Source: Bacteroidales bacterium (GTDB lineage Bacteria > Bacteroidota > Bacteroidia > Bacteroidales > UBA932). From it: a stretch of 40,599 nt of DNA. This document shows, piece by piece, positions 1,871-27,890 of this stretch; the first letter of the stretch is position 1; each line of letters begins with the position of its first letter. The position numbers and the translations under genes are program-made. The notes under the pieces were generated by a model. It ran no database searches, was not told the DNA's origin, and was given only the letters and a program-made list of their open reading frames with translations. The stretch lies in contig JAKSJM010000024.1 in the NCBI GenBank assembly GCA_024398075.1, positions 1 through 40,599 of the forward strand, given 5' to 3'.

Positions 1871-4195
1871 ATGAACACTAAACATCTGATAACTCTTGCG
1901 CTCTCACTGTCAGTGATAGCGTGTACACACAAGGAAATGTCCATCGACCAGAAAGTTAACGAGCTCTATGAGCGCATGACCCAGCAGGAGCGCATCGCAC
2001 AGCTCAGAAGCACATACCTGAACGATTTTTTCAGAGCAGACGGCACGCTCGACACAGCGAAGTGTCGCAAGCTGATTCCGGCGGGCATCGGTCACTTCTC
2101 GCAGTACGCCAGCCAGAACTCTGCAGATCCGAATGAGATACGCGACAAGGTAGCGGTGATGCAGGACTGGCTCATGCATAACACCCCGAGCGGCATACCT
2201 GCGCTCTTCCACGAGGAAGTGCTGACGGGAGTCTGCACGCGTGACGCAGCCGTGTATCCTCAGCAGATAGGACTCGCTTGCTCGTTCAACCCAGAACTCG
2301 CCGAGCTCAAGGCCGTCCAGACGGGCTTGACGCTTAGACAGATAGGAGGTTTCCTCTCGCTCTCCCCTATGGTGGACGTGGTGCGTACACCATCGTTCAA
2401 CCGCCTCGAGGAGTCGTACGGCGAGGACGCCTACCTCTCGGCTGTCTTCGGCACCGCCTTCGTGAAAGGCCTCCAGAAGGGCGGCCTTCGCACTGGCGTC
2501 GGCGCCTGCAGCAAGCATTTCCTGGGATATGGCGGTGGCGGAAATGCCGAGGAGAAGGAACTCATGGAAGAGATTCTGCTCCCTCATGAGACCATGATAC
2601 GCCTCGGCGGGGAGAAGGTCGTCATGACCGGCTACCACGCCGTGCACGGCACGAAGTGCGTGGCCAGCGCCGAGCTTCAGCAGGAGATTCTGCGCGAGTA
2701 CATTGGCTTCGACGGCATGATGGTGAGCGACTACGGATCCATTGACCAGATACCGGATTTCGAGGACAATCTTCATCGCGGAGCGGCTGCGATCAATGCT
2801 GGCAACGATGTAGATTTCCCACGCGGAGACAGCTATGGACTGCTGCAGGAGGCCATTGACGAAGGTCTCGTGAGCCAGCAGACTCTCGAGAGGGCGGTGA
2901 AGAATGTGCTCACTTACAAGGCTCTTGTGGGCCTTCTCGACGAGCAGCCTAAGCTCTACAGCAGCGAGCACATCGTATTCGACACCCCAGAGGAGCGCCA
3001 GACCGCATACACCCTCGCCACTCAGTCGGTAGTGATGCTGAAAAACGACGGCACGCTGCCTCTCAAGCAGCCTCAGAAGATATTCCTTACCGGTCCGAAC
3101 GCAAACTCCATGTGGGCTATGCTCGGCGACTATACCTTCCACTCTATGAGATACTTCTGGCAGAAGCAGACCGAGGATGCGCTGCATCCGAAGATCGTCT
3201 GCGTGAAGGAAGGACTCGAGAAGAACATGCCGGAAGGATTCAGCGTAGCGTATAGCTGCGGATGCGACTGGACCGAGGTCATAGAGACCCAGATCGAGGA
3301 GGGTGGAGACGAGAGAGCGCAGTGGATGCGCACCATCCTCGGGAGGAAGGTGCAGCATCCTGACGAAGCGAACGAGGCGGAGGCTCTCGCCATGGCAGCG
3401 CGCAGCGACGTGATCGTGGCGGCTATGGGCGAGAACGTGCTCCTGTGCGGTGAGAACCGCGACCGCACGTCTCTCTACCTCCCGGGCAAGCAGGAAGCGT
3501 ACGTAGAGAGCCTTATCGCGACCGGCAAGCCTGTGATTCTCGTGGTCTTCGGTGGCCGTGCGCAGGTCATCTCCCGCATCGCTGACCGCTGCGCCGCCAT
3601 CATCCAGGCATGGTATCCTGGCGAGGAAGGAGGTAACGCAGTGGCTGACATCCTTTACGGCAAGGTATCTCCATCTGGCAAGTTAAGTGTCTCATACCCA
3701 AGCGTTGAGATCAATGAACCCGTATGCTATAACTACTCCGACTCCGCCGATCCACGCATCGCTTGGCCATTTGGATACGGCCTTAGCTACAGCACGTTCG
3801 AGTACTCAAACCTCACAGTGGACAAGGAAGTGGCTACGAGCGCAAGCGCCGTAAAGCTCTCATTTGAAGTGAAGAACACTGGCGACATGGAAGCCGACGA
3901 GGTGGCACAGATCTACCTCTCCCCTACCAGCGGCTCCCAGAACATACGCCCTATCCAGCTCCAGGGATTCGGTCGCGTGAGCCTCAAGCCAGGCGAGTCG
4001 AAGACGCTCAGCTGCGAGCTCAGCACAGAGCAGTTCGGATACTACGAGAACCACCAGTGGAATATCGCTCCAGGAGAGTTTATCGTGAAGGTAGGAGCAT
4101 CATCACAGGACATCAGGCTCAGCGGAGAGGTGAGACTTACAGGCGAAAAGCTGACCATGCCTCTCAGGAGCACATATTTCTCAAATGTAAAATAG
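1871..4195 (+). CDS. Glycoside hydrolase family 3 lipoprotein (beta-glucosidase or beta-xylosidase type)
   Basis: A 774-residue protein from the ATG at 1871. That start gives a clean lipoprotein signal peptide with lipobox 'VIAC'; an in-frame ATG at 1832 lies upstream of the likely promoter and is disfavoured. The domain order is that of a full GH3 enzyme. The N-terminal barrel contains 'SYGEDAYL' and the nucleophile Asp287 in 'MMVSDYGS'. A second alpha/beta domain contains 'GENRDRTSLYLPGKQ' and 'WYPGEEGGNAVADILYG'. The C-terminal fibronectin-like domain contains 'VKNTGDMEADEVAQIYL'. GH3 enzymes remove sugars from the non-reducing end of beta-linked glycans with retention. The exact substrate cannot be told from sequence. 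It leads an operon with two more secreted proteins. Confidence 0.93.
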   Translation: MNTKHLITLALSLSVIACTHKEMSIDQKVNELYERMTQQERIAQLRSTYLNDFFRADGTLDTAKCRKLIPAGIGHFSQYASQNSADPNEIRDKVAVMQDWLMHNTPSGIPALFHEEVLTGVCTRDAAVYPQQIGLACSFNPELAELKAVQTGLTLRQIGGFLSLSPMVDVVRTPSFNRLEESYGEDAYLSAVFGTAFVKGLQKGGLRTGVGACSKHFLGYGGGGNAEEKELMEEILLPHETMIRLGGEKVVMTGYHAVHGTKCVASAELQQEILREYIGFDGMMVSDYGSIDQIPDFEDNLHRGAAAINAGNDVDFPRGDSYGLLQEAIDEGLVSQQTLERAVKNVLTYKALVGLLDEQPKLYSSEHIVFDTPEERQTAYTLATQSVVMLKNDGTLPLKQPQKIFLTGPNANSMWAMLGDYTFHSMRYFWQKQTEDALHPKIVCVKEGLEKNMPEGFSVAYSCGCDWTEVIETQIEEGGDERAQWMRTILGRKVQHPDEANEAEALAMAARSDVIVAAMGENVLLCGENRDRTSLYLPGKQEAYVESLIATGKPVILVVFGGRAQVISRIADRCAAIIQAWYPGEEGGNAVADILYGKVSPSGKLSVSYPSVEINEPVCYNYSDSADPRIAWPFGYGLSYSTFEYSNLTVDKEVATSASAVKLSFEVKNTGDMEADEVAQIYLSPTSGSQNIRPIQLQGFGRVSLKPGESKTLSCELSTEQFGYYENHQWNIAPGEFIVKVGASSQDIRLSGEVRLTGEKLTMPLRSTYFSNVK

Positions 4196-5201: not shown

Positions 5202-6296
5202 ATGAGAGTACATACCATTCTAACAGCCATATCATTGGCTTTCATCATCACATCGTGTGGAAGCAAGGTTGACCCTGAGCAGCCAGATCCCATTCAGAAG
5301 CCCGACCTCCCCACTACCACAAAGCTGGAGTATCCAGCGCCAGAACATACTGGATTTGAGAGAGTTGCATACTTTCCTTCATACAGGAACGTAGGCACAT
5401 TGTACGTCCCGGACTACATCTATGAGAGTGTGGATGTGTGCTGCTACGCATTCGCCACCATCAACGCCCAGAACAAGGTCTCGCTCCAGCAGGAGAAGAC
5501 CCTCAAGGCGCTCGTGGACCGCGCTCATGCGATGGGAAAGAAGGTGCTCATCAGCCTCAACGGAGACCACAAGCTTTACGCGCAGATGACCTCTTCCATG
5601 GCCAGCAGAATCACCTTCGTGAACTCCGTGATGGACATCGTGAAGAACTATAACCTCGATGGCGTGGACAATGACTGGGAGTATCCCAAGGCCTCGGACA
5701 ACTCATCCAAGGGCAACTACGAACTCATGAAGCAGTTCTCAAACATCCTTCATGCACCAGGCGAGAACAAGCTCCTGACCATGGCCATCACACCTGGCAA
5801 GTACGCTGGATCCATCCGTGACGGCATCCTCACAGAGGTGTTTGACTGCGTGGACTGGTTCAACATCATGGTCTATGATGATTACACCACCGAAGTGGCC
5901 GGCAGGAACCACGCCTCATGGGAACTCATGACCACAGCAGCGAGCTACTGGATAGGAGAAAGAAAAATGCCTAAGAAGAAATTTGTCTGCGGCCTTCCAG
6001 CATACGGAAGGGCATCCGGCATCACCCAGAGCGGCACCACCCTATCCTACTCAGTCATCCTCGATAAGGGTGGAGACCCATACTCGGACAGCGCTATGGT
6101 ATCGTCAGACTCGCATCCAGAGTCATACGAGATATTCTACAACGGCATAACCACCATCAGAAAGAAAGTGGCATACTGCATGGAGAATGATCTCGGAGGC
6201 TACATGTTCTGGGAGCAGGGTCAGGACTGCTACACGGACAAGGAAAAGTCGCTGCTGTACAACGCCAGCGACGAATACATGACATCAAAAAAGTAG
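5202..6296 (+). CDS. Glycoside hydrolase family 18 lipoprotein (chitinase-like)
   Basis: A 364-residue protein with a lipoprotein signal peptide and lipobox 'ITSC'. The GH18 active-site motif is intact: 'DGVDNDWE' at residues 153-160, with Glu160 as the general acid. Further family features are 'VLISLNGDHK', 'WFNIMVYDD' on the beta-6 strand, and 'GGYMFWEQGQD' near the end. GH18 enzymes cleave beta-1,4 N-acetylglucosamine linkages, either in chitin or, as endo-beta-N-acetylglucosaminidases, in N-glycan cores. In a gut Bacteroidales the host-glycan role is plausible, but the subfamily cannot be settled by eye. It starts two bases after the preceding stop codon, so the two are likely coupled. 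Confidence 0.92.
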   Translation: MRVHTILTAISLAFIITSCGSKVDPEQPDPIQKPDLPTTTKLEYPAPEHTGFERVAYFPSYRNVGTLYVPDYIYESVDVCCYAFATINAQNKVSLQQEKTLKALVDRAHAMGKKVLISLNGDHKLYAQMTSSMASRITFVNSVMDIVKNYNLDGVDNDWEYPKASDNSSKGNYELMKQFSNILHAPGENKLLTMAITPGKYAGSIRDGILTEVFDCVDWFNIMVYDDYTTEVAGRNHASWELMTTAASYWIGERKMPKKKFVCGLPAYGRASGITQSGTTLSYSVILDKGGDPYSDSAMVSSDSHPESYEIFYNGITTIRKKVAYCMENDLGGYMFWEQGQDCYTDKEKSLLYNASDEYMTSKK

Positions 6297-11303: not shown

Positions 11304-14300
11304 CTATTTCTGTATCTCTTTCAGCATCTCCTTGACCGCAGCCTCAAGCTGCTGGTCTTCGCCTCTCATGACAGCCGCTGGGTCATTGTAAACCAGGATG
11401 TCAGGCTCGATCTGGAGGTTCTCGATAGGACGGTCATCCTTGAGTCCCCATGCGGTGACCTCTGGGATACCGAAGACGAGCGAAGCGTCTACCTGGGTCT
11501 CCCACCATACAGCGGTCATGGTGCCTGGCACTGGCGCACCGATGAGCTTGCCGATGCCGAGTGACTTATAAACATAAGGGAATCCACATGCGTCAGAGTA
11601 GTTATCCTCGCCAATGAGTACGCATGAAGGCTTGGTCCACTTGTCGTAAGGGTCGGTGCCGATGTACTGGCCACGAGGGCGATACTCGATGTAGGCCTTA
11701 CCATTCAGGAACTGAGCGAGGTCCTCGTGGAGCCATCCACCACCATTGTGACGGGTATCGACGATAAGCGCCTCACAGCCTCTGTACTTGCCCAATGCAT
11801 TTGAGAACACAGTCCTGAAGCTCTCTGAATCCATGCCCTTGACATGCACATAACCGATCTTTCCACCAGAAAGCTTCTCCACCATCTGCTCACGCTGGCG
11901 CACCCATTTGGTATAGAGAAGTGGCGAGTCGGACGAGTTCGGTGTGAGGTAAAGTGTAGTTTTCTTGCCGCTCTTCTCCACCACGAGCTGCACTCTCTTG
12001 CCTGACTTCCAAGCAAATGCCTCGTACCAGGTCTTTCCTGCTGGAATCGCCTGACCGTCAATGGCCAGAATCACGTCACCAGCCTTGATCTCAGGATCTA
12101 CATTTCCAAGCATGCCGCCAGGAAGCATCTCCGCGATCTTCAATCCCTTGCCGGTGTAGTTCATGTCGTAAAGGACGCCAATGTGTCCGGCATTTGGAGC
12201 TCCGGAAGGAGCTGATGGGCGGTAGCGAGCACCTGTGTGCGAGCCGTTCAGCTCGCCCAGCATCTCCGAGAGGAGGTCCTGGAAGTCATAGTTGTTTGTG
12301 ATGTATGGAAGGAACTGAGCGTAGTTATCATGCATTGACTTCCAGTCGAGACCGTGGATATCCTTGTCGTAGAACTTCTCGTCCACCTGCTTCCAGCAGT
12401 GCTCGAAGATGTATGCTCTCTCCTCTGCAGGATAGTAGTCATACTCTCCGCTGAAACTTACCGACTTCGTGCTTCCTGTCTTAAGATCAAGCTTAGATAC
12501 GCTCAGAAGGCCGATCATATAGACATTCTTTCCGTCCTTATCTGGGAAGAAACGGCCACGCACGCCCTTCTTGACTACTTTCTGCTCCCTGGTTCTGAGG
12601 TCTACCGAGCAAAGGTCGCCACCACTTGTGAAGTAGAGGACTCCGTCTGGAGACATGATGAGGTCGCCTATGCTTGACGAAGCGCGAGTAAGGCGGATGG
12701 TACGGTCCTCGATGCCTGCGAGGTCGAGCTTCACAGGCTCTACCTTGCCCTTCTTCGCATTCTTGGTGCTGTCCTTAGCCTCCTTGGCCTCCTGTTTCTC
12801 AGCTTTCTTGTCACCTTCCTTCATGAGTTTCTCGATGTCGACCTCATTCTGAGCACGGGTGTACTCGTAGTAAGCCTTGCCATCGAAGAACATGATGTAT
12901 GCGTCTCTGTATGAGCCCCAGCTACCATGGCTGCGATAGCCGGCGCGGTCTGAGGTCCAGATCATGGCCTTGCCGCCGAGTGCCCAGCGGAAGTCGCCAT
13001 CCTTATATCCGCTCTTTGTGAGGTTTGTGACCACGCCGCTCTCCACATCTATGAGAGCCACGTCTTCATTGTTCCAGCCACCCAGAGCTCCATAATTACA
13101 CAGGATGGACTTGGAGTCAGGGCTCCAGGAGTAGTCCTGATCACCATCTGAGTATGAGTAGTTTACGTCCTTAAGAAGAGACTTCTCCTCGCCAGACTTG
13201 ATGTTCTTTACGACTATCTCGGTACGGTCGCGAAGGAAGGCAAGGTACTTGCCGTCTGGCGACACCTGAGGCTGGAAGCAGGTCTGACCAGGGGTGGTCA
13301 CCCTCTCCTCCTTGAAGTCGTAGGCGAGAGAGAAATACTTGTCATCCTTGTCAGCAAGTGTGGTCTTGTAGACACCCCACTCACCATTGCGCTCAGAAGC
13401 GTAGTAGAGAGTACGTCCGGTCTCGTCAAATGAGATGCCTCTTTCCTGACATGCTGTATCAGTGATTCTTCTGGTGCTCTTGGCCTCGGTAGATGTGACA
13501 TACACATCGCCACGGCTGATGACTGCGATCTCCTTTCCTGTAGGAGAAGGAGCGATGGTGCGCACGCTGTATGAAGCTGACTGACGTATGGACTCGCGAT
13601 CCACGATGTCCTTCGCGATGGTGATCTCGACCTTCTTAGGCTGGGTTCCCTCCTTCACGGTGTAAAGGTCACCATTGTACGAAAGAAGTACGGTTCCATC
13701 CTGCGCTGCGCTGATGTGACGCACTGGATGAGTAGAGAACGATGTCAGCTGTTTAGGTGCGGAACCATCTAAGGATGAGCGCCATACATTCAGGGAACCG
13801 CTCTTCTCTGAAAGGTATGCGAATGACCTGCCATCACCGAGGAAGGCTGGGCAGAGATCCTCACCTGCGAAGTCTGAGAGCTTTCTGTAGCTGCCGTCTG
13901 CAGGATCGAACGCCCAGATGTCCCTGGTCACTGAAGAGGTATGGTGCTTACGGAGTGGGTCCTCATAGCCCTTGTTATCCTCGTAGAGCATCACGCGGGC
14001 GGCATTCACGCTCACGGCTGTCATGGTGACAGAGGTCAGCTGCTTAGGCGCGCCGCCGTCGAGCGACACCTCATATACCTGTGCCGAGCCGGGGAAATTT
14101 GAGTAAGATGGATCCAGCTGTATGTTTGCGCTGAAGATGACTGTGCCGTCAATGGTGGTAGCGAGAGGCGTCTCAGCGCCCTGGTACGCGGTCACGCGGA
14201 CTGGCGCGCCACCTTCTGCGGCCACCTTCCAGATGTCCTTCGTAAGCTCGCGGGTAGAGCTGAAGACGATATACTTGCCGTCCTTGGTCCAGATAGGATC

Positions 14301-19005: not shown

Positions 19006-19479
19006 ATGCTTCAAGAGATAGAGAGAAAGTTCCTCATACACGGCGACTTCAAGAAAGACGCCTTCAAGGCCACGCGCATCACCCAAGGATATCTTAACTC
19101 TTCCCCAGAGCGCACGGTACGTGTGCGCATCAAGGGCGAGAAGGGATTCATCACCATCAAGGGAGTGGGTGACGCCACAGGCGTGGCTCGCTTCGAGTGG
19201 GAGAAGGAGATTCCGGTGGAGGAGGCCCAGGCGCTCCTGAAACTCGCGGAGCCGGGCGTGATCGACAAGACCAGGTACCTCGTGAAGAGCGCCGACGGCC
19301 TCCACACCTGGGAGGTCGACGAGTTCCATGGTGCGAACGAAGGCCTCACCATGGCCGAGATCGAGCTCTCTTCCATCGATGAAGCCTTCGACAAACCGTC
19401 CTGGCTGGGCAAAGAAGTCACAGGCGACCCGCGCTACTATAACTCCTCGCTGAAGAACCATCCGTATAAGGACTGGTAA
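19006..19479 (+). CDS. CYTH-domain protein (inorganic triphosphatase type)
   Basis: A 157-residue protein that is a single CYTH domain of normal length. The N-terminal signature 'EIERKFL' (ExExK) binds triphosphate and metal. Basic and acidic tunnel residues follow in 'RTVRVRIKGEKGFITIKG', 'FEWEKEIP', 'IDKTRYLV', 'WEVDEFHG' and 'AEIEL'. Bacterial proteins of this kind are mostly short-chain triphosphatases; class IV adenylate cyclases share the fold. The start at 19006 puts the ExExK motif at residues 4-8, as usual. An upstream extension to 18730 is open but runs antisense through the neighbouring membrane protein gene. Confidence 0.92.
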   Translation: MLQEIERKFLIHGDFKKDAFKATRITQGYLNSSPERTVRVRIKGEKGFITIKGVGDATGVARFEWEKEIPVEEAQALLKLAEPGVIDKTRYLVKSADGLHTWEVDEFHGANEGLTMAEIELSSIDEAFDKPSWLGKEVTGDPRYYNSSLKNHPYKDW

Positions 19480-19510
19480 AAGCCCGTCACACTTCCATCA
19501 CGTCTCTGCC

Positions 19511-19642
19511 CTACTCGTCGCCAAACTCCGTTCCCGGCTCCATCGGGTCAATGCTGAAGTTCATGAACCCAGCGCCCTCAGGCACGAGATCCACCATCTC
19601 CAGCATGGGGGATGCGTATGGGAAAGCGTCGATTCCTGTCAT
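19511..19642 (-). CDS. Orphan 43-residue peptide of the YxxP-LEM-acidic type
   Basis: A short open frame of 43 codons. It contains 'YASPMLEMVDLVPEGAGF' and ends in an acidic tail ('PMEPGTEFGDE'). The order (Tyr-x-Ser/Ala-Pro, then Met/Leu-Glu-Met/Leu, then a Gly-containing acidic end) matches the small peptides encoded ahead of the surface lipoproteins at 25.7, 31.6 and 35.5 kb. A full -7 element (TACATTTG) lies seven bases before the ATG, which supports expression. Unlike the others it has no lipoprotein gene after it; the next gene in that direction is on the other strand. Function unknown. Confidence 0.5.
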   Translation of the reverse strand: MTGIDAFPYASPMLEMVDLVPEGAGFMNFSIDPMEPGTEFGDE

Positions 19643-19648
19643 ATAGCA

Positions 19649-19656
19649 CAAATGTA
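19649..19656 (-). promoter_or_regulatory. Likely -7 element for the orphan peptide gene
   Basis: The minus strand reads TACATTTG, a full match to TAnnTTTG, six bases upstream of the ATG. It sits within about 50 bp of the start of repeat array A. Confidence 0.4.
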
Positions 19657-19687
19657 GCAATTATTGCGGGAAGTTCAGCGCGTCGCG

Positions 19688-20562
19688 GGCGTTTTCTGCC
19701 TCCCCCATCCCACTCCGCCACTGAATCAAGCATTTCATGGCGAAATCTCCATTTTCCCGCGCCCAGGCCATCGGAAGCGTGCTTTTGATGGCCGTTTCCC
19801 TGCCTCCCACCCCACTCCGCCACGGACTCAAGTATTTCATGGCGAAATCTCCATTTTCCCACGCCCAGGCCATCAAAAGCGGGCTTTTGATGGCCGTTTC
19901 CCTGCTCCCCCACCCATTCCGCCACCGAATCAAGCATTTCATGGCGAAATCTCCATTTTCCCACGCCCAGGCCATCGGAAGCGGGCTTTTGATGGCCACT
20001 TCCCTGCTCCCCACCCCATCTCGCCACCGAATCAAGAATTTCATGGCGAAATCTCCATTTCCCCAGCGCGAAGGCCATCGGAAGCACGCTTTTGATGGCC
20101 GTTTCCCTGCTCCCCACCCCATCTCGCCACCGAATCAAGCTTTTCATGGCGAAATCTCCATTTTCCAGCGCCCAGGCCATCGGAAGCGGGCTTTTGATGG
20201 CCGAATCTCTACCGCCCACCCCACTCCGCCACAGAATCAAGCATTTCATGGCGAAACCGTCCACTTCCCACCGCGAAGGCCATCGGAAGCGAGCTTTTGA
20301 TGGCCGTTTCCCTGCTCCCCATCCCACCTCGCCACAGAATCAAGCTTTTCATGGCGAAACCTCCATTTCCCCAGCGCCCAGGCCATCGGAAGCGTGCTTT
20401 TGATGGCCGTTTCCCTGCTCCCCACCCCATTCCGCCACCGAATCAAGCATTTCATGGCGAAACCGTCCACTTCCCACCGCAGCGGCCATCGGAAGCGGGC
20501 TTCTGATGGCCGATTCCCTGCTCCCCACCCCATTCCGCCATCGAATCAAACTATTCATGGCG
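19688..20562 (+). repeat. Repeat array A1: about 8.5 units of 102-103 bp, one hairpin per unit
   Basis: Direct tandem repeats. The segment TTCATGGCG recurs with its ATG at 19737, 19839, 19941, 20043, 20146, 20248, 20351, 20454 and 20557, a period of 102-103 bp. Each unit has a hairpin: GGCCATCGGAAGC, a two-base variable spacer, then GCTTTTGATGGCC. Hairpins start at 19766, 19868, 19970, 20073, 20175, 20278, 20381 and 20484. The array starts in a decayed unit and ends just after TTCATGGCG at 20562, where the toxin-antitoxin cassette begins. Open frames run through on both strands, but the mixed 102/103 period shifts the frame, so coding is unlikely. There are no CRISPR-like spacers. Confidence 0.92.
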
Positions 20563-20576
20563 CATGTTACTTTAGC

Positions 20577-20607
20577 TTTGTTTTATCGTGTCTTTTTCAT
20601 ACCTTTG
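20577..20607 (+). promoter_or_regulatory. Promoter of the toxin-antitoxin cassette
   Basis: TTTG at 20577-20580 and TACCTTTG at 20600-20607 are separated by exactly 19 bp, a full match to the Bacteroidetes -33/-7 promoter. It lies 15 bp after the end of array A1 and 48 bp ahead of the toxin start. The cassette therefore carries its own promoter. Confidence 0.82.
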
Positions 20608-20655
20608 TACCTAGATATGTCATCTTATAGTTGAATTGCATCATTAGGTTACTGT

Positions 20656-20946
20656 ATGGCAACAAGAAGTGAAGTGGAACTGTTTCTGAATCAGTTCAAG
20701 GTTAAGTTGGAGATTTGGGATCGCTTGAATGTGGTGAAAAGCATAGAGGTGGAGGATTATTCTGAAGGGCCGATTAAGGACCAGCTGAACGGCTTTGGGG
20801 AGATGTGGGTATTCGGAAAGGACATTGATGGTCACGAAATGTACATCAAAATCACTTTGGGCCATCCTGGCACGAACACAATCTGCATTTCGTTCCACAT
20901 AGCTGAATATCCGATGCAGTATCCGTTGAAAATAAAGGAAGAATGA
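20656..20946 (+). CDS. MqsR-like small toxin (first gene of a toxin-antitoxin pair)
   Basis: A 96-residue protein, about the length of MqsR (98). Its segments 'GEMWVFGKDIDGHEMYIKITL' and 'NTICISFHIAEYPM' resemble the beta-strand core of MqsR/RelE-fold RNA-cleaving toxins ('VYLKITV...LIVSF'). The N-terminal 'EVELFLNQFKVKLEIWD' is helical. It overlaps the following gene as ATGA and has a strong promoter of its own. If it is a toxin of this fold it would cut mRNA and be held inactive by the product of the next gene. The MqsR assignment rests on remembered patterns; an unrelated toxin class paired with the same antitoxin type is possible. Confidence 0.62.
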   Translation: MATRSEVELFLNQFKVKLEIWDRLNVVKSIEVEDYSEGPIKDQLNGFGEMWVFGKDIDGHEMYIKITLGHPGTNTICISFHIAEYPMQYPLKIKEE

Positions 20947-21959
20947 CTATGCTGAACGACAAGAAGAATTTGGTGAGTCCGATGACGGGCGGACAGATGA
21001 TCCTGAAGTGGGACTTGGAGGAAGTCGTGTACCGCAAGGAGACGTTTAAAGTTTGGTATCCCTACTATGAATGTATGGATACTGGCAACCGCTTTACGAC
21101 CACTGAGAGTGACGGCGTTTGGTGTAGGCAGGTGCATGAACAGTATTGCCAGAAGTACGGCATACCATATACAGATGAGATAGTCGCACTTAGGGCGCGG
21201 TATGGACTTTCAGCCCAGAAGATGTCACTGATTCTTGGCTTCGGCGAGAATCAGTGGCGCAAGTATGAGCAGGATGAGATACCCAATGTGTCAAATGGCA
21301 GAGTGATACGTTCTGCCATGAATCCGAATATGATGATGGACTTCGTGAATAGCGCCCGTGGCGTGCTGACGGACAAGGAATACGAGACGGTGCGCGCAAA
21401 GGTGCAGAATGCCATTGGCCAAAATGAGGCAATGCGTATCGAGGCGTACGAGACGGAAAGGGTCTTTGCCTACGCCCGTGGCGAGGAGAATGGGTACGCG
21501 CCATTGTCGCTGAAGCGTCTGAAGAATGTGATGCTGCGCGTGCTGGAGCAGTGCGGCGAGATGTGGGTGACGAAGATGAACAAATTGCTCTTCTACATCG
21601 ACTTCGTATCATATCGCGAGAGGGGCATGGCAATGACCGGGCTAGCATATCGCGCCATCGACTACGGTCCCGTGCCTGAGCGTTGGCAGAAGGTATACAG
21701 CGAATTTGACGAGATCAGCCAGGAACCTCGCGACATGGGCGAGTACGAAGGGCAGATACTGGTAGCCAAGGCCAATGCTGACGATGGCATCCTCTCGGAA
21801 GAAGAGCTATCAATCATCGACACCGTATGTAACAAACTGAAGGACTGCTCTTCGCGCGAAGTGTCAGCCATGAGCCACGAGGAGAAAGCCTGGCTCGACA
21901 ATCACGAGTCCCACAGGATGATCCCATACGCAGCCGCATTTGAGCTGAGGCTGATGTAG
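20943..21959 (+). CDS. Antitoxin with MqsA-like HTH and Panacea (DUF4065/SocA) domain
   Basis: A 338-residue protein; a start two codons later (20949) is possible. Residues about 1-60 resemble an MqsA zinc-finger region, but most cysteine ligands are missing ('SPMTGGQM' where CPxCG is expected, then 'YYECMDTGNRF'). Residues about 75-125 form an MqsA-type helix-turn-helix ('LRARYGLSAQKMSLILGFGENQWRKYEQDEIPN'). The C-terminal half is a Panacea/DUF4065 domain ('VTKMNKLLFYIDFVSYRERG', 'YRAIDYGPVPERW', 'MSHEEKAWLDN'). Panacea domains neutralise many different toxins, while the HTH part usually represses the operon. Array A2 begins directly after its stop codon. Confidence 0.88.
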   Translation: MTMLNDKKNLVSPMTGGQMILKWDLEEVVYRKETFKVWYPYYECMDTGNRFTTTESDGVWCRQVHEQYCQKYGIPYTDEIVALRARYGLSAQKMSLILGFGENQWRKYEQDEIPNVSNGRVIRSAMNPNMMMDFVNSARGVLTDKEYETVRAKVQNAIGQNEAMRIEAYETERVFAYARGEENGYAPLSLKRLKNVMLRVLEQCGEMWVTKMNKLLFYIDFVSYRERGMAMTGLAYRAIDYGPVPERWQKVYSEFDEISQEPRDMGEYEGQILVAKANADDGILSEEELSIIDTVCNKLKDCSSREVSAMSHEEKAWLDNHESHRMIPYAAAFELRLM

Positions 21960-22149
21960 CCCCGCCAGGCCATCGGAAGCGGGCTTTTGATGGCCGAATC
22001 CCTGCTCCCCACTCCATTCCGCCACCGAATCAAGCATTTCATGGCGAAACCTCCATTTTCCCAGCGCGAAGGTCATCGGAAGCGGGCTTTTGATGGCCGT
22101 TTCCCTGCTCCCCACCCCATTCCGCCACAGAATCAAGCTTTTCATGGCG
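21960..22149 (+). repeat. Repeat array A2: two units, continuation of array A after the cassette
   Basis: Two units of the same family as array A1. Hairpins start at 21968 and 22071, 103 bp apart, and TTCATGGCG ends at 22046 and 22149. The first unit begins eight bases before its hairpin, directly after the antitoxin stop codon. Like A1, the array ends in phase right after TTCATGGCG. The second hairpin has GGTCATC in place of GGCCATC, which still pairs as U-G in plus-strand RNA. Confidence 0.9.
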
Positions 22150-22186
22150 TCGTCTGCGCTGTCCGACTCCTGCCCTGCGCGAACGC

Positions 22187-22265
22187 TTATCGTAATTCGA
22201 TAAAAAATGGACTACTCCGACCCAAAGCGTGTCGAAGTAGTCCATTTTTTATCGTGAAACGATAA
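22187..22265. repeat. 79-bp hairpin element C, copy 1 (inverted orientation)
   Basis: Both ends are 17-bp palindromes of the form TTATCG-N5-CGATAA (N5 is TAATT on the left, TGAAA on the right). The inner arms AAAATGGACTACT and AGTAGTCCATTTT enclose a 19-base centre. The whole can fold into one long hairpin with an A-run and T-run at the base, so it could also act as a terminator. Two other copies, also 79 bp, lie at 31766 and 37582. This copy is inverted relative to them, judged by the constant N5 (TAATT here, AATTA there). It lies 37 bp after array A2. Confidence 0.8.
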
Positions 22266-22428
22266 CGCTCTGTCACATATAGCCCTCACATGTGTCCCGA
22301 CAGTCCAGCACATCACGGTGACATAACGGAAGGCTGGCGGCTAGGGAGAAACCAGTAAAAAGAGATGGCTACATTTTGACGCATCACTATACAAAGAGTG
22401 GCAGCTAACTCTAGCGAGTTGCCGCCAC
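22266..22428. other. Intergenic stretch with a decayed hairpin at its end
   Basis: No gene was seen in these 163 bp. The last part (from about 22397) forms an imperfect hairpin: AGTGGCAGCTAACT pairs with AGTTGCCGCCACT with one bulge and one mismatch. It is related to the perfect GTGGCAGCAAC hairpins at 22679 and 32684. It touches the point where the IS66 transposase fragment begins. Confidence 0.45.
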
Positions 22429-22632
22429 TTGTTAGGCCTAAATAACTATCTCTTCTGCGGCAACCATGACGCCGCCGTCCGGGCTGCCATCGTCTACTCA
22501 CTCTTTACCTGCTGCAAAGTTCACGATATCGAGATCCGTCCATGGCTCGAGGACACCCTCAAAAGGCTGCCGACCGAAAAGGACATTACAATGTTACTTC
22601 CTGAGAAGTGGCAGCCAGTGACGGCAAAGTAA
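22429..22632 (+). pseudogene. IS66-family transposase, C-terminal fragment
   Basis: A 67-residue remnant that matches the C-terminal (IS66_C) part of IS66 transposases: 'NNYLFCGNHDAAVRAAIVYSL', then 'CCK', 'RPWLEDTLKRLP' and 'LLPEKW' before the stop. A full transposase has about 500 residues, so nearly all of the DDE domain is missing. The frame upstream is open but enters the decayed hairpin at 22397-22428, where similarity ends. It has no proper start codon at the junction (TTG). The fragment is followed by 10-bp iterons and an IS end at 22753. Confidence 0.85.
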
Positions 22633-22753
22633 CAGTCAATGACAGCCTGTGACGGTCAGTGACACGTCACTAGACGAAAGTGGCAGCAACTTGCGCGTAG
22701 TTGCTGCCACTTCGCTGTTATAAAGTGTTACATGTACTTTATCGGAGGCTTAC
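22618..22753 (+). mobile_element. Probable right end of an IS66-type element: iterons, hairpin and terminal repeat
   Basis: After the transposase fragment, RTGAC recurs at 22639, 22649 and 22659 with an exact 10-bp period (with related words at 22618 and 22629), followed by ACTAGAC at 22669. A perfect 14-bp stem (AAGTGGCAGCAACT, 22678-22691, loop TGCGCGT) follows. The segment ends with GGAGGCTTAC, whose complement begins GTAAGCC, similar to IS66 terminal repeats as I know them. Bases 22669-22753 (85 bp) are identical to 32674-32758. Confidence 0.6.
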
Positions 22754-27240: not shown

Positions 27241-27296
27241 AGATTGGCGGGAGCAGAAGAATATATCAATTATCAACTGTACGATTACATTAACCC
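27241..27296. other. Spacer between the ATPase regulatory repeats and array B
   Basis: These 56 AT-rich bases hold no gene, hairpin or promoter that I can see. Confidence 0.4.
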
Positions 27297-27847
27297 ATCT
27301 CTTTGCGTCTGCTGAGCGCCTCTCCGGTCCCACGGGACGCAAAAGCGCCCCTCTTTGCGTCTATGGCCTCTGAAAAGTGGGTTCGCTGCTGCAAATACCC
27401 ATCTCTTTGCGTCTGTTCAGCGCCCGGAAGGTCCCACGGGACGCAAACGCGCCCCTCTTTGCGTCTCCCGCCGCTGAAAAGTGGGTTCGCAGCTGCAAAT
27501 ACCCATCTTTTTGCGTCTACAGAGCGCCTCGCCGGTTCCTCGGGACGCAGAAACGCCCCTCCATGCGTCTCCCGCCGCTGAAAAGTGGGTTCGCAGCCGC
27601 AAAAAGCCATCTAAATGCGTCTGCCGATCGCCTCTCCGGTCCCACGGGACGCAGAAGCGCCCCTCCATGCGTCTCCCGCCCCTGAAAAGTGTGTTCGCAG
27701 CCGCAAATACCCATCTCTTTGCGTCTGCAGAAGGCCTCACCGTCCCCACGGGACGCAAAAGCGCCCCTCCTTGCGTCTACTGCCGCTGAAAAGTGATGTA
27801 GCAGCCGCAAATCCCCATCTTTTTGCGTCTACAGAGCGCCTCGCCGG
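27297..27847. repeat. Repeat array B: about 5.3 units of exactly 104 bp
   Basis: Direct tandem repeats. The word CTGAAAAGTG recurs with its TG at 27371, 27475, 27579, 27683 and 27787, a constant 104-bp period. Each unit contains GACGCA...TGCGTC, which forms a hairpin with a loop of about ten bases (GACGCAAA/TTTGCGTC in the first two units). Just ahead of it is GTCCC-AC-GGGAC, a small hairpin that would compete with it. Unit sequence is unrelated to array A, though the period is alike. The array ends inside a truncated peptide gene at 27847. Long open frames occur on both strands, as expected from GC-rich repeats. Confidence 0.9.
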
Positions 27848-27890
27848 TCTCCAAAAGCTCCATCTCGGGAGCGGCGTATAGTTCATTCAT
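27777..27890 (-). pseudogene. Truncated peptide gene fused to repeat array B
   Basis: The ATG overlaps the stop codon of FISUMP lipoprotein 2 (TAATG). The first 14 codons read 'MNELYAAPEMELLE', the same 'YAAPEMELLE' core as the intact peptide genes at 25678 and 31561. The frame then runs straight into array B sequence and stops after 37 codons. The break lies at about 27848. It appears to be the remnant of a further peptide gene whose 3' part was replaced by the array. Confidence 0.65.

Follow-up and report, generated by a model that had tools for sequence, protein, structure and literature searches.

Array A and its surroundings

What does a tandem array of palindromes do behind the genes of a Bacteroidales bacterium? 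The window, meaning the whole stretch of 40,599 nucleotides analysed here, is contig C17 of a 2.49-Mb, 71-contig, 82%-complete Bacteroidales bacterium genome and carries such an array (array A) in two blocks. An earlier note had read its palindrome, from the letters of the DNA alone, as a plus-strand RNA stem under selection, revealed by compensating changes on one strand only. The features of this region are as follows.

19006 to 19479, + strand: CYTH-domain gene upstream of the main block (Pfam PF01928); its stop lies 236 nt before the first H2
19703 to 20562, + strand: main block of array A, direct repeats found by TRF; 8.4 units of 102-103 bp
19716 to 19742, + strand: first copy of palindrome H2 (sequence)
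19818, 19920, 20022, 20125, 20227, 20330, 20433, 20536, 22020 and 22123, + strand: starts of the other H2 copies (sequence)
19766 to 19793, + strand: first copy of palindrome H1, 28 nt (sequence)
19868, 19970, 20073, 20175, 20278, 20381, 20484, 21968 and 22071, + strand: starts of the other H1 copies (sequence)
19794 to 19817, + strand: example of a C-rich, G-poor spacer (composition)
20656 to 20946, + strand: 96-aa ORF from the ORF list, overlapping the Panacea gene by 4 nt; no Pfam match
20943 to 21959, + strand: SocA/Panacea-domain antitoxin-like gene between the blocks, preceding the second (Pfam PF13274; plasmid relatives)
21965 to 22149, + strand: second block of array A, two units

TRF assigns the main block a period of 103, 8.4 copies and a score of 1204, and gives a 51-bp period too. 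Each unit runs H2, spacer, H1, spacer, in two half-units of about 51 bp with one palindrome apiece. H1 has the form GGCCATC..AAGC-NN-GCTTTTGATGGCC, and H2, present in 11 copies in the window, has the form CGCCAC.GAATCAAGC.TTTCATGGCG plus variants. All ten H1 palindromes previously reported are in place, as are their listed departures (AA at 19868, C at 20484 and T at 22071), which keep plus-strand pairing, and the two middle bases do vary (GT, GG, AC and GA; nucleotide diversity over the ten units, 0.42). The repeat pitch of about 102 bp likewise holds, with H1 copies spaced by 102 or 103 bp. The hairpin had been drawn as a 13-bp stem with a two-base spacer; the palindrome is real, but RNA folding predicts a 12-bp stem closed by a CNNG tetraloop, and an RNA loop of 2 nt is sterically unlikely. 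That description of the unit captured H1 but missed H2.

When two 27-nt copies are left out, the H1-to-H1 distance is 102 in 17 of 22 intervals and 103 in the other five, all of them in the window; the pitch is kept fixed while the spacer sequence drifts. The first H1 of the second block, at 21968, starts 8 nt past the stop codon that ends at 21959. The 96-aa ORF is possibly a toxin partner of the Panacea gene, and the pair at 20656-21959 may be a toxin-antitoxin unit inserted in, or flanked by, array A.

A coding reading of array A in the window was rejected because its units, being 102 or 103 bp long, do not stay in one frame. Open frames cross the array there on both strands; elsewhere the period of 102 bp is divisible by three, and the arrays are crossed by open frames as long as 127 aa. 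None of the H1 copies of the genome lies inside a Pfam-supported gene, and some fall within array-crossing open frames of up to 249 aa. No tRNA or tmRNA was found in the window, where Rfam gave no match at the gathering score; the phage search returned no match to array A, and viral contigs gave none to the H1 pattern. CRISPR arrays consist of near-identical repeats parted by unrelated spacers, and this class was rejected because the array A spacers share homology among themselves (diversity, 0.19 to 0.28). An integron-like cassette array, in which the Panacea gene would be a cassette and the repeats attC sites, fits a toxin-antitoxin-like gene between two blocks and repeats that stand in sense behind stop codons. 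It is hardly credible all the same: the core consensus of attC is GTTRRRY, and an attC array was rejected because this core is absent from 19703-20562 and from 21965-22149, while the Pfam-named genes at the other loci are ordinary chromosomal genes.

Conservation and pairing of the palindromes

Sequence variation among the ten units is unevenly spread. Variable columns number 4 of 26 in the H1 stem and 4 of 20 in the H2 arms, compared with 13 of 24 in the first spacer and 15 of 24 in the second (nine copies); this amounts to 8 of 46 columns in the arms and 28 of 48 in the spacers (Fisher p = 5e-5). Measured as nucleotide diversity, the H1 stem (0.031) and the H2 arms (0.060) vary far less than the two spacers (0.19 and 0.28, the latter from nine copies). 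Constraint on the arms of array A exceeds chance, the palindromes being held while the spacers drift. The first and last bases of the four-base H1 tip are C..G, U..G or G..A in 38 of the 38 copies scored, a count that leaves out two 27-nt copies. Stable tetraloops start and finish with such base combinations.

The earlier reading took the H1 stem to be selected as plus-strand RNA, seen through compensating changes, and perhaps as part of a small-RNA array. In an alignment of 40 rows from both genomes that carry H1 (21 distinct copies), 255 of 271 pairing cells (94.1%) pair in sense and 227 (83.8%) in antisense, which favours that reading. Six of the 13 H1 pairs are invariant. At pairs 8 and 9 the changes are one-sided (G-U, A-U and one G-C), with a 3' arm that is nearly fixed and a 5' arm that mostly drifts among purines, a pattern for which selection on pairing is not required. 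A two-sided change, also in favour of an RNA stem, is seen at pair 12 only, where one subfamily has C-G and the other (the window copies and C12:87324) has G-C; this exchange is taken as one historical event, a subfamily split.

The departures within the window are one-sided rather than two-sided compensations, and by arithmetic 15 of the 26 possible single transitions in the H1 stem keep plus-strand pairing, which gives four of four a p value of about 0.1. A few G-U/A-U exchanges within one tandem array are not evidence of covariation. The covariation check gave a two-sided change in 1 of 13 H1 pairs and 0 of 10 H2 pairs, and the H1 covariation score (0.161) is near that of the slid control with the partner shifted by -1 column (0.147). 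A shuffle control does favour structure in H1 (0/500), an outcome that related sequences give without structure. Copies in a sister species break pairs 1, 6, 8 or 9, which also counts against the reading. The inference from one strand only does not extend to the whole unit either: in 13 window-type copies of H2 (10 distinct), 80 of 100 cells pair in sense and 84 of 100 in antisense, with no two-sided change in the 10 pairs.

Folding speaks more clearly for RNA. A two-unit stretch folds better than its shuffles in sense (z = -6.06) and much less so in antisense (z = -1.38), and the sense z is the lower one at each of the 10 A-type places folded of the 16 known (30 shuffles each). The raw folding energy is lower in antisense at nine of these ten, however, and sense is favoured only against shuffles. 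Folding against shuffles is better evidence for RNA than pairing changes on one strand, and compensating changes are weak evidence as proof of an RNA stem. Selection on a plus-strand stem is partly supported, by the better sense pairing of H1, by folds that beat shuffles and by elements that mostly follow stop codons in sense, against a covariation near that of the slid control. For a small-RNA array, the 2 promoter-like sites in 19400-22400, against 2.1 expected, both lie outside array A; an independent small RNA is not supported, and the context is that of message 3' ends. As an explanation of array A, the reading from compensating changes is improbable.

Copies in this genome and in a sister species

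A pattern search of the genome gave 28 forward matches, of which 27 are H1; the copy at 22071, which reads GGTCATC, brings the H1 total to 28. They lie on contigs C11, C12 (three places), C17 (two blocks), C19, C34, C36 (two places) and C48, so that A-type loci are scattered and include single units as well as arrays. A pattern scan of contigs from named genomes gave nine stretches: two are arrays with the same spacing, both in the MAG "Bacteroidales bacterium isolate Horse_feces46", and seven are single palindromes from other taxa. This MAG carries 12 H1 copies within the stretches read and, on sequence comparison, is a sister species. The MutS proteins of the two genomes are 98% identical, and the DNA is 93.6% identical over the 2864 nt of mutS and the array start and 94.2% identical over the 518 nt from inside the mutS array to past the next element. 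Together the two genomes yield 40 H1 copies from 16 places, 11 here and 5 in the sister. A palindrome with a different interior that matches a loose pattern in both genomes (C8:14043 and G085 C49:23960) was set aside.

In both genomes, arrays stand 3' of mutS and of a GH63/trehalase-like gene. The mutS array of the sister has one unit fewer, and copy number varies among loci and between the sister species; loci L080 and L081 may be the two ends of a single array split by the assembly. The search for relatives of the unit succeeded in the sister species but yielded no DNA match in 60 other congeners and no pattern match in 60 relatives. In the stretches read, the A-type unit was absent behind mutS at all 29 loci (40 congeners searched) and behind ychF at all 18 (17 of 19 genomes). 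Genus-wide sequence conservation of array A was rejected, the matches being confined to the genome and its sister.

Position and orientation relative to genes

A gene could be assigned at 14 of the 16 places, the other two (the C36 end and L081) being at contig ends. The A-type repeat is in sense to the nearest stop codon at 13 of these 14 (binomial p = 0.0018) or, minus two orthologous sister-species loci, at 11 of 12 (p = 0.006), counts in which, as in those of composition, the copies are homologous and hence non-independent. The nearest stop was counted because a convergent context always puts the element in sense to one gene. The first palindrome begins about 8-65 nt past the stop at 12 of the 14 places. 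One exception is the window's main block, at 236 nt; the other is C34, whose unit has the sense gene about 75 nt away and, at a distance of 5 nt, the stop of an antisense transporter gene that converges on it. Pfam matches above the cut-off were obtained for 11 of the 14 upstream genes, those at C19, C34 and C36 having none. The matched genes encode CYTH, Panacea, MutS (both genomes), GH63/trehalase-like (both), YchF, MetH, esterase, LpxK and GH92/125 products.

Relation to REP repeats and other known elements

Array A looks like the REP repeats already known, not like a new class of small RNA. In the general sense given in a portion of PMC12306157, a REP is a short extragenic palindrome (14-40 nt) that occurs in similar copies in one genome and is transcribed; the genome contains 28 extragenic H1 copies of 27-28 nt. 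Passages of PMC3733652 describe REP/BIME elements as extragenic palindromes of 20-40 bp that occur in several copies as singletons, dimers or tandem clusters and mostly follow genes, in gaps between ORFs that run the same way or converge. The A-type repeat shares these traits. It is unlike them in having two different palindromes at the half-period, C-rich and G-poor spacers, and a sense orientation to the nearest stop at 13 of 14 places. BIMEs have palindromes that alternate in inverted orientation and are joined by conserved linkers; H1 and H2 alternate at 51-52 bp, align better direct than inverted (by eye) and are joined by variable linkers. Unlike members of the GTAG/CGTC REP superfamilies, H1 has no unpaired end tag: GTAG, CTAC, CGTC or GACG was found within 8 nt of either flank in 0 of 38 copies. 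In a part of PMC12306157 that cites earlier work, E. coli REPs near stop codons are said to down-regulate translation. Similarly, 3 of the 14 places begin within 15 nt of the stop (8, 9 and 14 nt), whereas 11 begin further off, and the arrays hold several hairpins. REPs of this phylum appear only as a mention or as counts in the available portions of PMC3733652 and PMC12306157.

Within the order, BrickBuilt of Porphyromonas gingivalis is described in sections of PMC4596501 as a minisatellite/MITE of 23-nt repeats without spacers, with a leader and tail that have small inverted ends, and with bidirectional promoter activity. Judged by descriptions, not sequence, array A is like it in being a species-limited, intergenic tandem repeat of Bacteroidales with predicted stem loops, and unlike it in its spaced units of 102-103 bp. 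As to MITEs, which as whole elements are bounded by terminal inverted repeats and target-site duplications, the ends of the arrays have no common inverted ends (by eye). None of the titles and abstract openings found in the open-access literature with the keywords tried is an account of the array A repeat.

The main rival to a function in RNA is that these are selfish or passive REP/MITE-like palindromes, which spread, amplify in tandem and survive where they harm least, just past stop codons, their arms being kept as a substrate of mobility or amplification and not for any host use of the RNA. The confinement to this genome and its sister (0 of 60 other congeners by DNA, 0 of 60 relatives by pattern) fits this explanation, as do the scattered loci with single units and arrays, the second inverted-repeat element that adjoins at five places (three here and two orthologous ones in the sister), and the occurrence of REPs elsewhere mainly behind genes, stated in a portion of PMC3733652. 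A Y1 transposase (PF01797, RAYT) was not found in this 82%-complete genome, however, and the 13/14 orientation bias would need a directional insertion rule. The stretch from the mutS array to the element is, moreover, as conserved as the gene with the array start. A passive or mobile repeat is possible if rather doubtful as the whole account, and it is compatible with a role at 3' ends; the two are not mutually exclusive.

Other repeats nearby and in congeners

Several further repeats share the layout or the neighborhood of array A.

Window 27293-27849: array B, inverted repeats TTTGCGTC...GACGCAAA; period 104, half-period 52 (TRF)
L055 ~785-932, L056 ~5760-5920 and ~13330-13475, L083 ~1055-1200, L079 ~270-360: element of ~150 bp with inverted ends GCAATTCGTTT...AAACGAATTGC
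L018 8955-9998, L058 ~13150-13230, L057 ~3430-3480: hairpin ATAATACGATTATCGCCACC...GGTGGCGATAA.TG.ATTAT
Congener G016, L095 8261-8626, L096 19094-19303, L105 1027-1264: period-74 arrays with ends GAGGGTGCA/TGCACCCTC and a GTGCCACAGA-like core

Array B is unrelated to array A in sequence and has the same layout. In the window it is antisense to the nearest stop and G-richer on the strand of the nearest gene; a homologue that opens contig C11 (L055 60-720) is in sense to the nearest gene and C-richer on that strand. The ~150-bp element follows A-type repeats at five places in the two genomes, with two orthologous pairs among the five, and has a central palindrome where fully read; GTGCCACAGA, a motif inside it, is found again in the G016 arrays of period 74. 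The ATAATACGATTATCGCCACC-type hairpin adjoins A-type repeats at three loci and, at C19, lies about 20 nt past the stop of a PD-(D/E)XK (PDDEXK_2) transposase-family gene. Strong inverted repeats also stand 3' of array A in the window: at 22187-22265, arms of 35 nt enclose TGGACTACTCCGAC, and AGTGGCAGC..GCTGCCACT hairpins occur repeatedly at 22397-22731.

In 400 kb of G016, palindromic tandem arrays of periods 52 and 74 occur, and a period-102 array (L094 5262-5885) reads like a TPR-type coding repeat. The period-74 arrays are on the strand of the preceding gene at three loci, and a single copy lies at L090 ~3960. No array of period 52, 74 or 102-104 was found in 387 kb of 20 other congeners or in 261 kb of 20 same-order genomes; the architecture is sporadic across the genus. 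Directly behind ychF, other repeats occur at three of 18 congener loci: L186 and L190 have tandem repeats (at least 35 of 50 matches) and L183 a short C-rich repeat. Two of the three are C-rich with CTGTCAT motifs and one is a tandem GGTTCGG/CCGAACC palindrome, as if the ychF 3' flank gathered different repeat families.

These periods bear on a third explanation, that the array works as DNA, its palindromes every 51-52 bp (about five helical turns) binding a nucleoid or topology protein in phase. Gyrase binding has been proposed for the BIMEs of E. coli. The spacing fixed despite spacer drift is in its favor, along with the period of 104 and half-period of 52 bp in the unrelated array B and the period-52 and period-74 arrays of G016. 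A symmetrical DNA site would be expected to show neither the consistent gene orientation nor the strand-asymmetric G-T pairs of H1, though, and the fixed spacing may merely reflect recent duplication, which leaves a DNA-level role distinctly unlikely.

A possible role in 3'-end formation

On the sense strand, C makes up 49% and G 8.6% of the array A spacers taken together (452 nt); at eight other A-type places, H1 excluded, the shares are 36-42% for C and 15-19% for G. Over the first 120 nt past the stop, the nine sense A-type flanks of the genome have C minus G values of 0.11-0.20, above the mean of -0.007 (sd 0.08) in 36 other flanks, a background that includes the C-rich stretch at 19480-19577 (C minus G, 0.23) and a spurious array ORF. 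The p value of 0.007 covers all 13 array-touching flanks, four of which are antisense or belong to array B (-0.04 to -0.08). Portions of PMC7815308 describe Rut sites as C-rich, G-poor, unstructured RNA, and 3'-5' exonucleases as processing the 3' ends made by Rho. The predicted RNA of array A is C-rich and G-poor behind stop codons, as in Rho-dependent terminators; unlike these, it is repeated in tandem and alternates with stable hairpins. A Rho gene is present in the genome. Sense terminator-like hairpins were found downstream in two of the five regions scanned (L017 9556 and L018 8967), where Rho may be dispensable.

We tentatively propose, as the likeliest of the explanations compared, that array A belongs to the 3' untranslated region of the genes preceding it, as a REP/BIME-like palindromic repeat amplified in tandem, and that it acts in 3'-end formation. 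Its repeat structure, conserved arms, position and orientation are observed; from the last two we infer that the array would be transcribed. In that case, 12-bp H1 hairpins with tetraloops would alternate along the sense RNA with weaker H2 hairpins, parted by C-rich, G-poor single strands of about 24 nt. Rho could load on these spacers past the stop codon and end transcription, and the hairpins would block 3'-5' exonucleases, which would leave the message with a 3' end both defined and stable; with several copies in tandem, each step would become surer. Against this explanation, the mutS and ychF loci of congeners do without the repeat (0/29 and 0/18), H2 has no sense-strand preference, and look-alike arrays differ in composition (C 0.26-0.30 and G 0.26-0.31 in G016). 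It is unlikely, though conceivable, that the unit is a modular 3'-end cassette of alternating Rho-loading spacers and exonuclease-stopping hairpins at a fixed 102-nt pitch, set in sense behind ordinary genes, whose copy number tunes termination and message life, and that unrelated palindromic tandem arrays of the genus, with periods of 52, 74 and 104, may do likewise. No description of such a cassette for Bacteroidales was met in the literature examined.

To our knowledge, the ending of transcripts has been little studied in gut Bacteroidales. Should array A be a passive repeat only, it would still represent a REP-like family without a tag at H1 and without a detected RAYT. Rut-like spacers and hairpins that stand in sense behind housekeeping genes, in copy numbers that vary, would provide a natural series for tests of Rho termination and of 3'-end protection.
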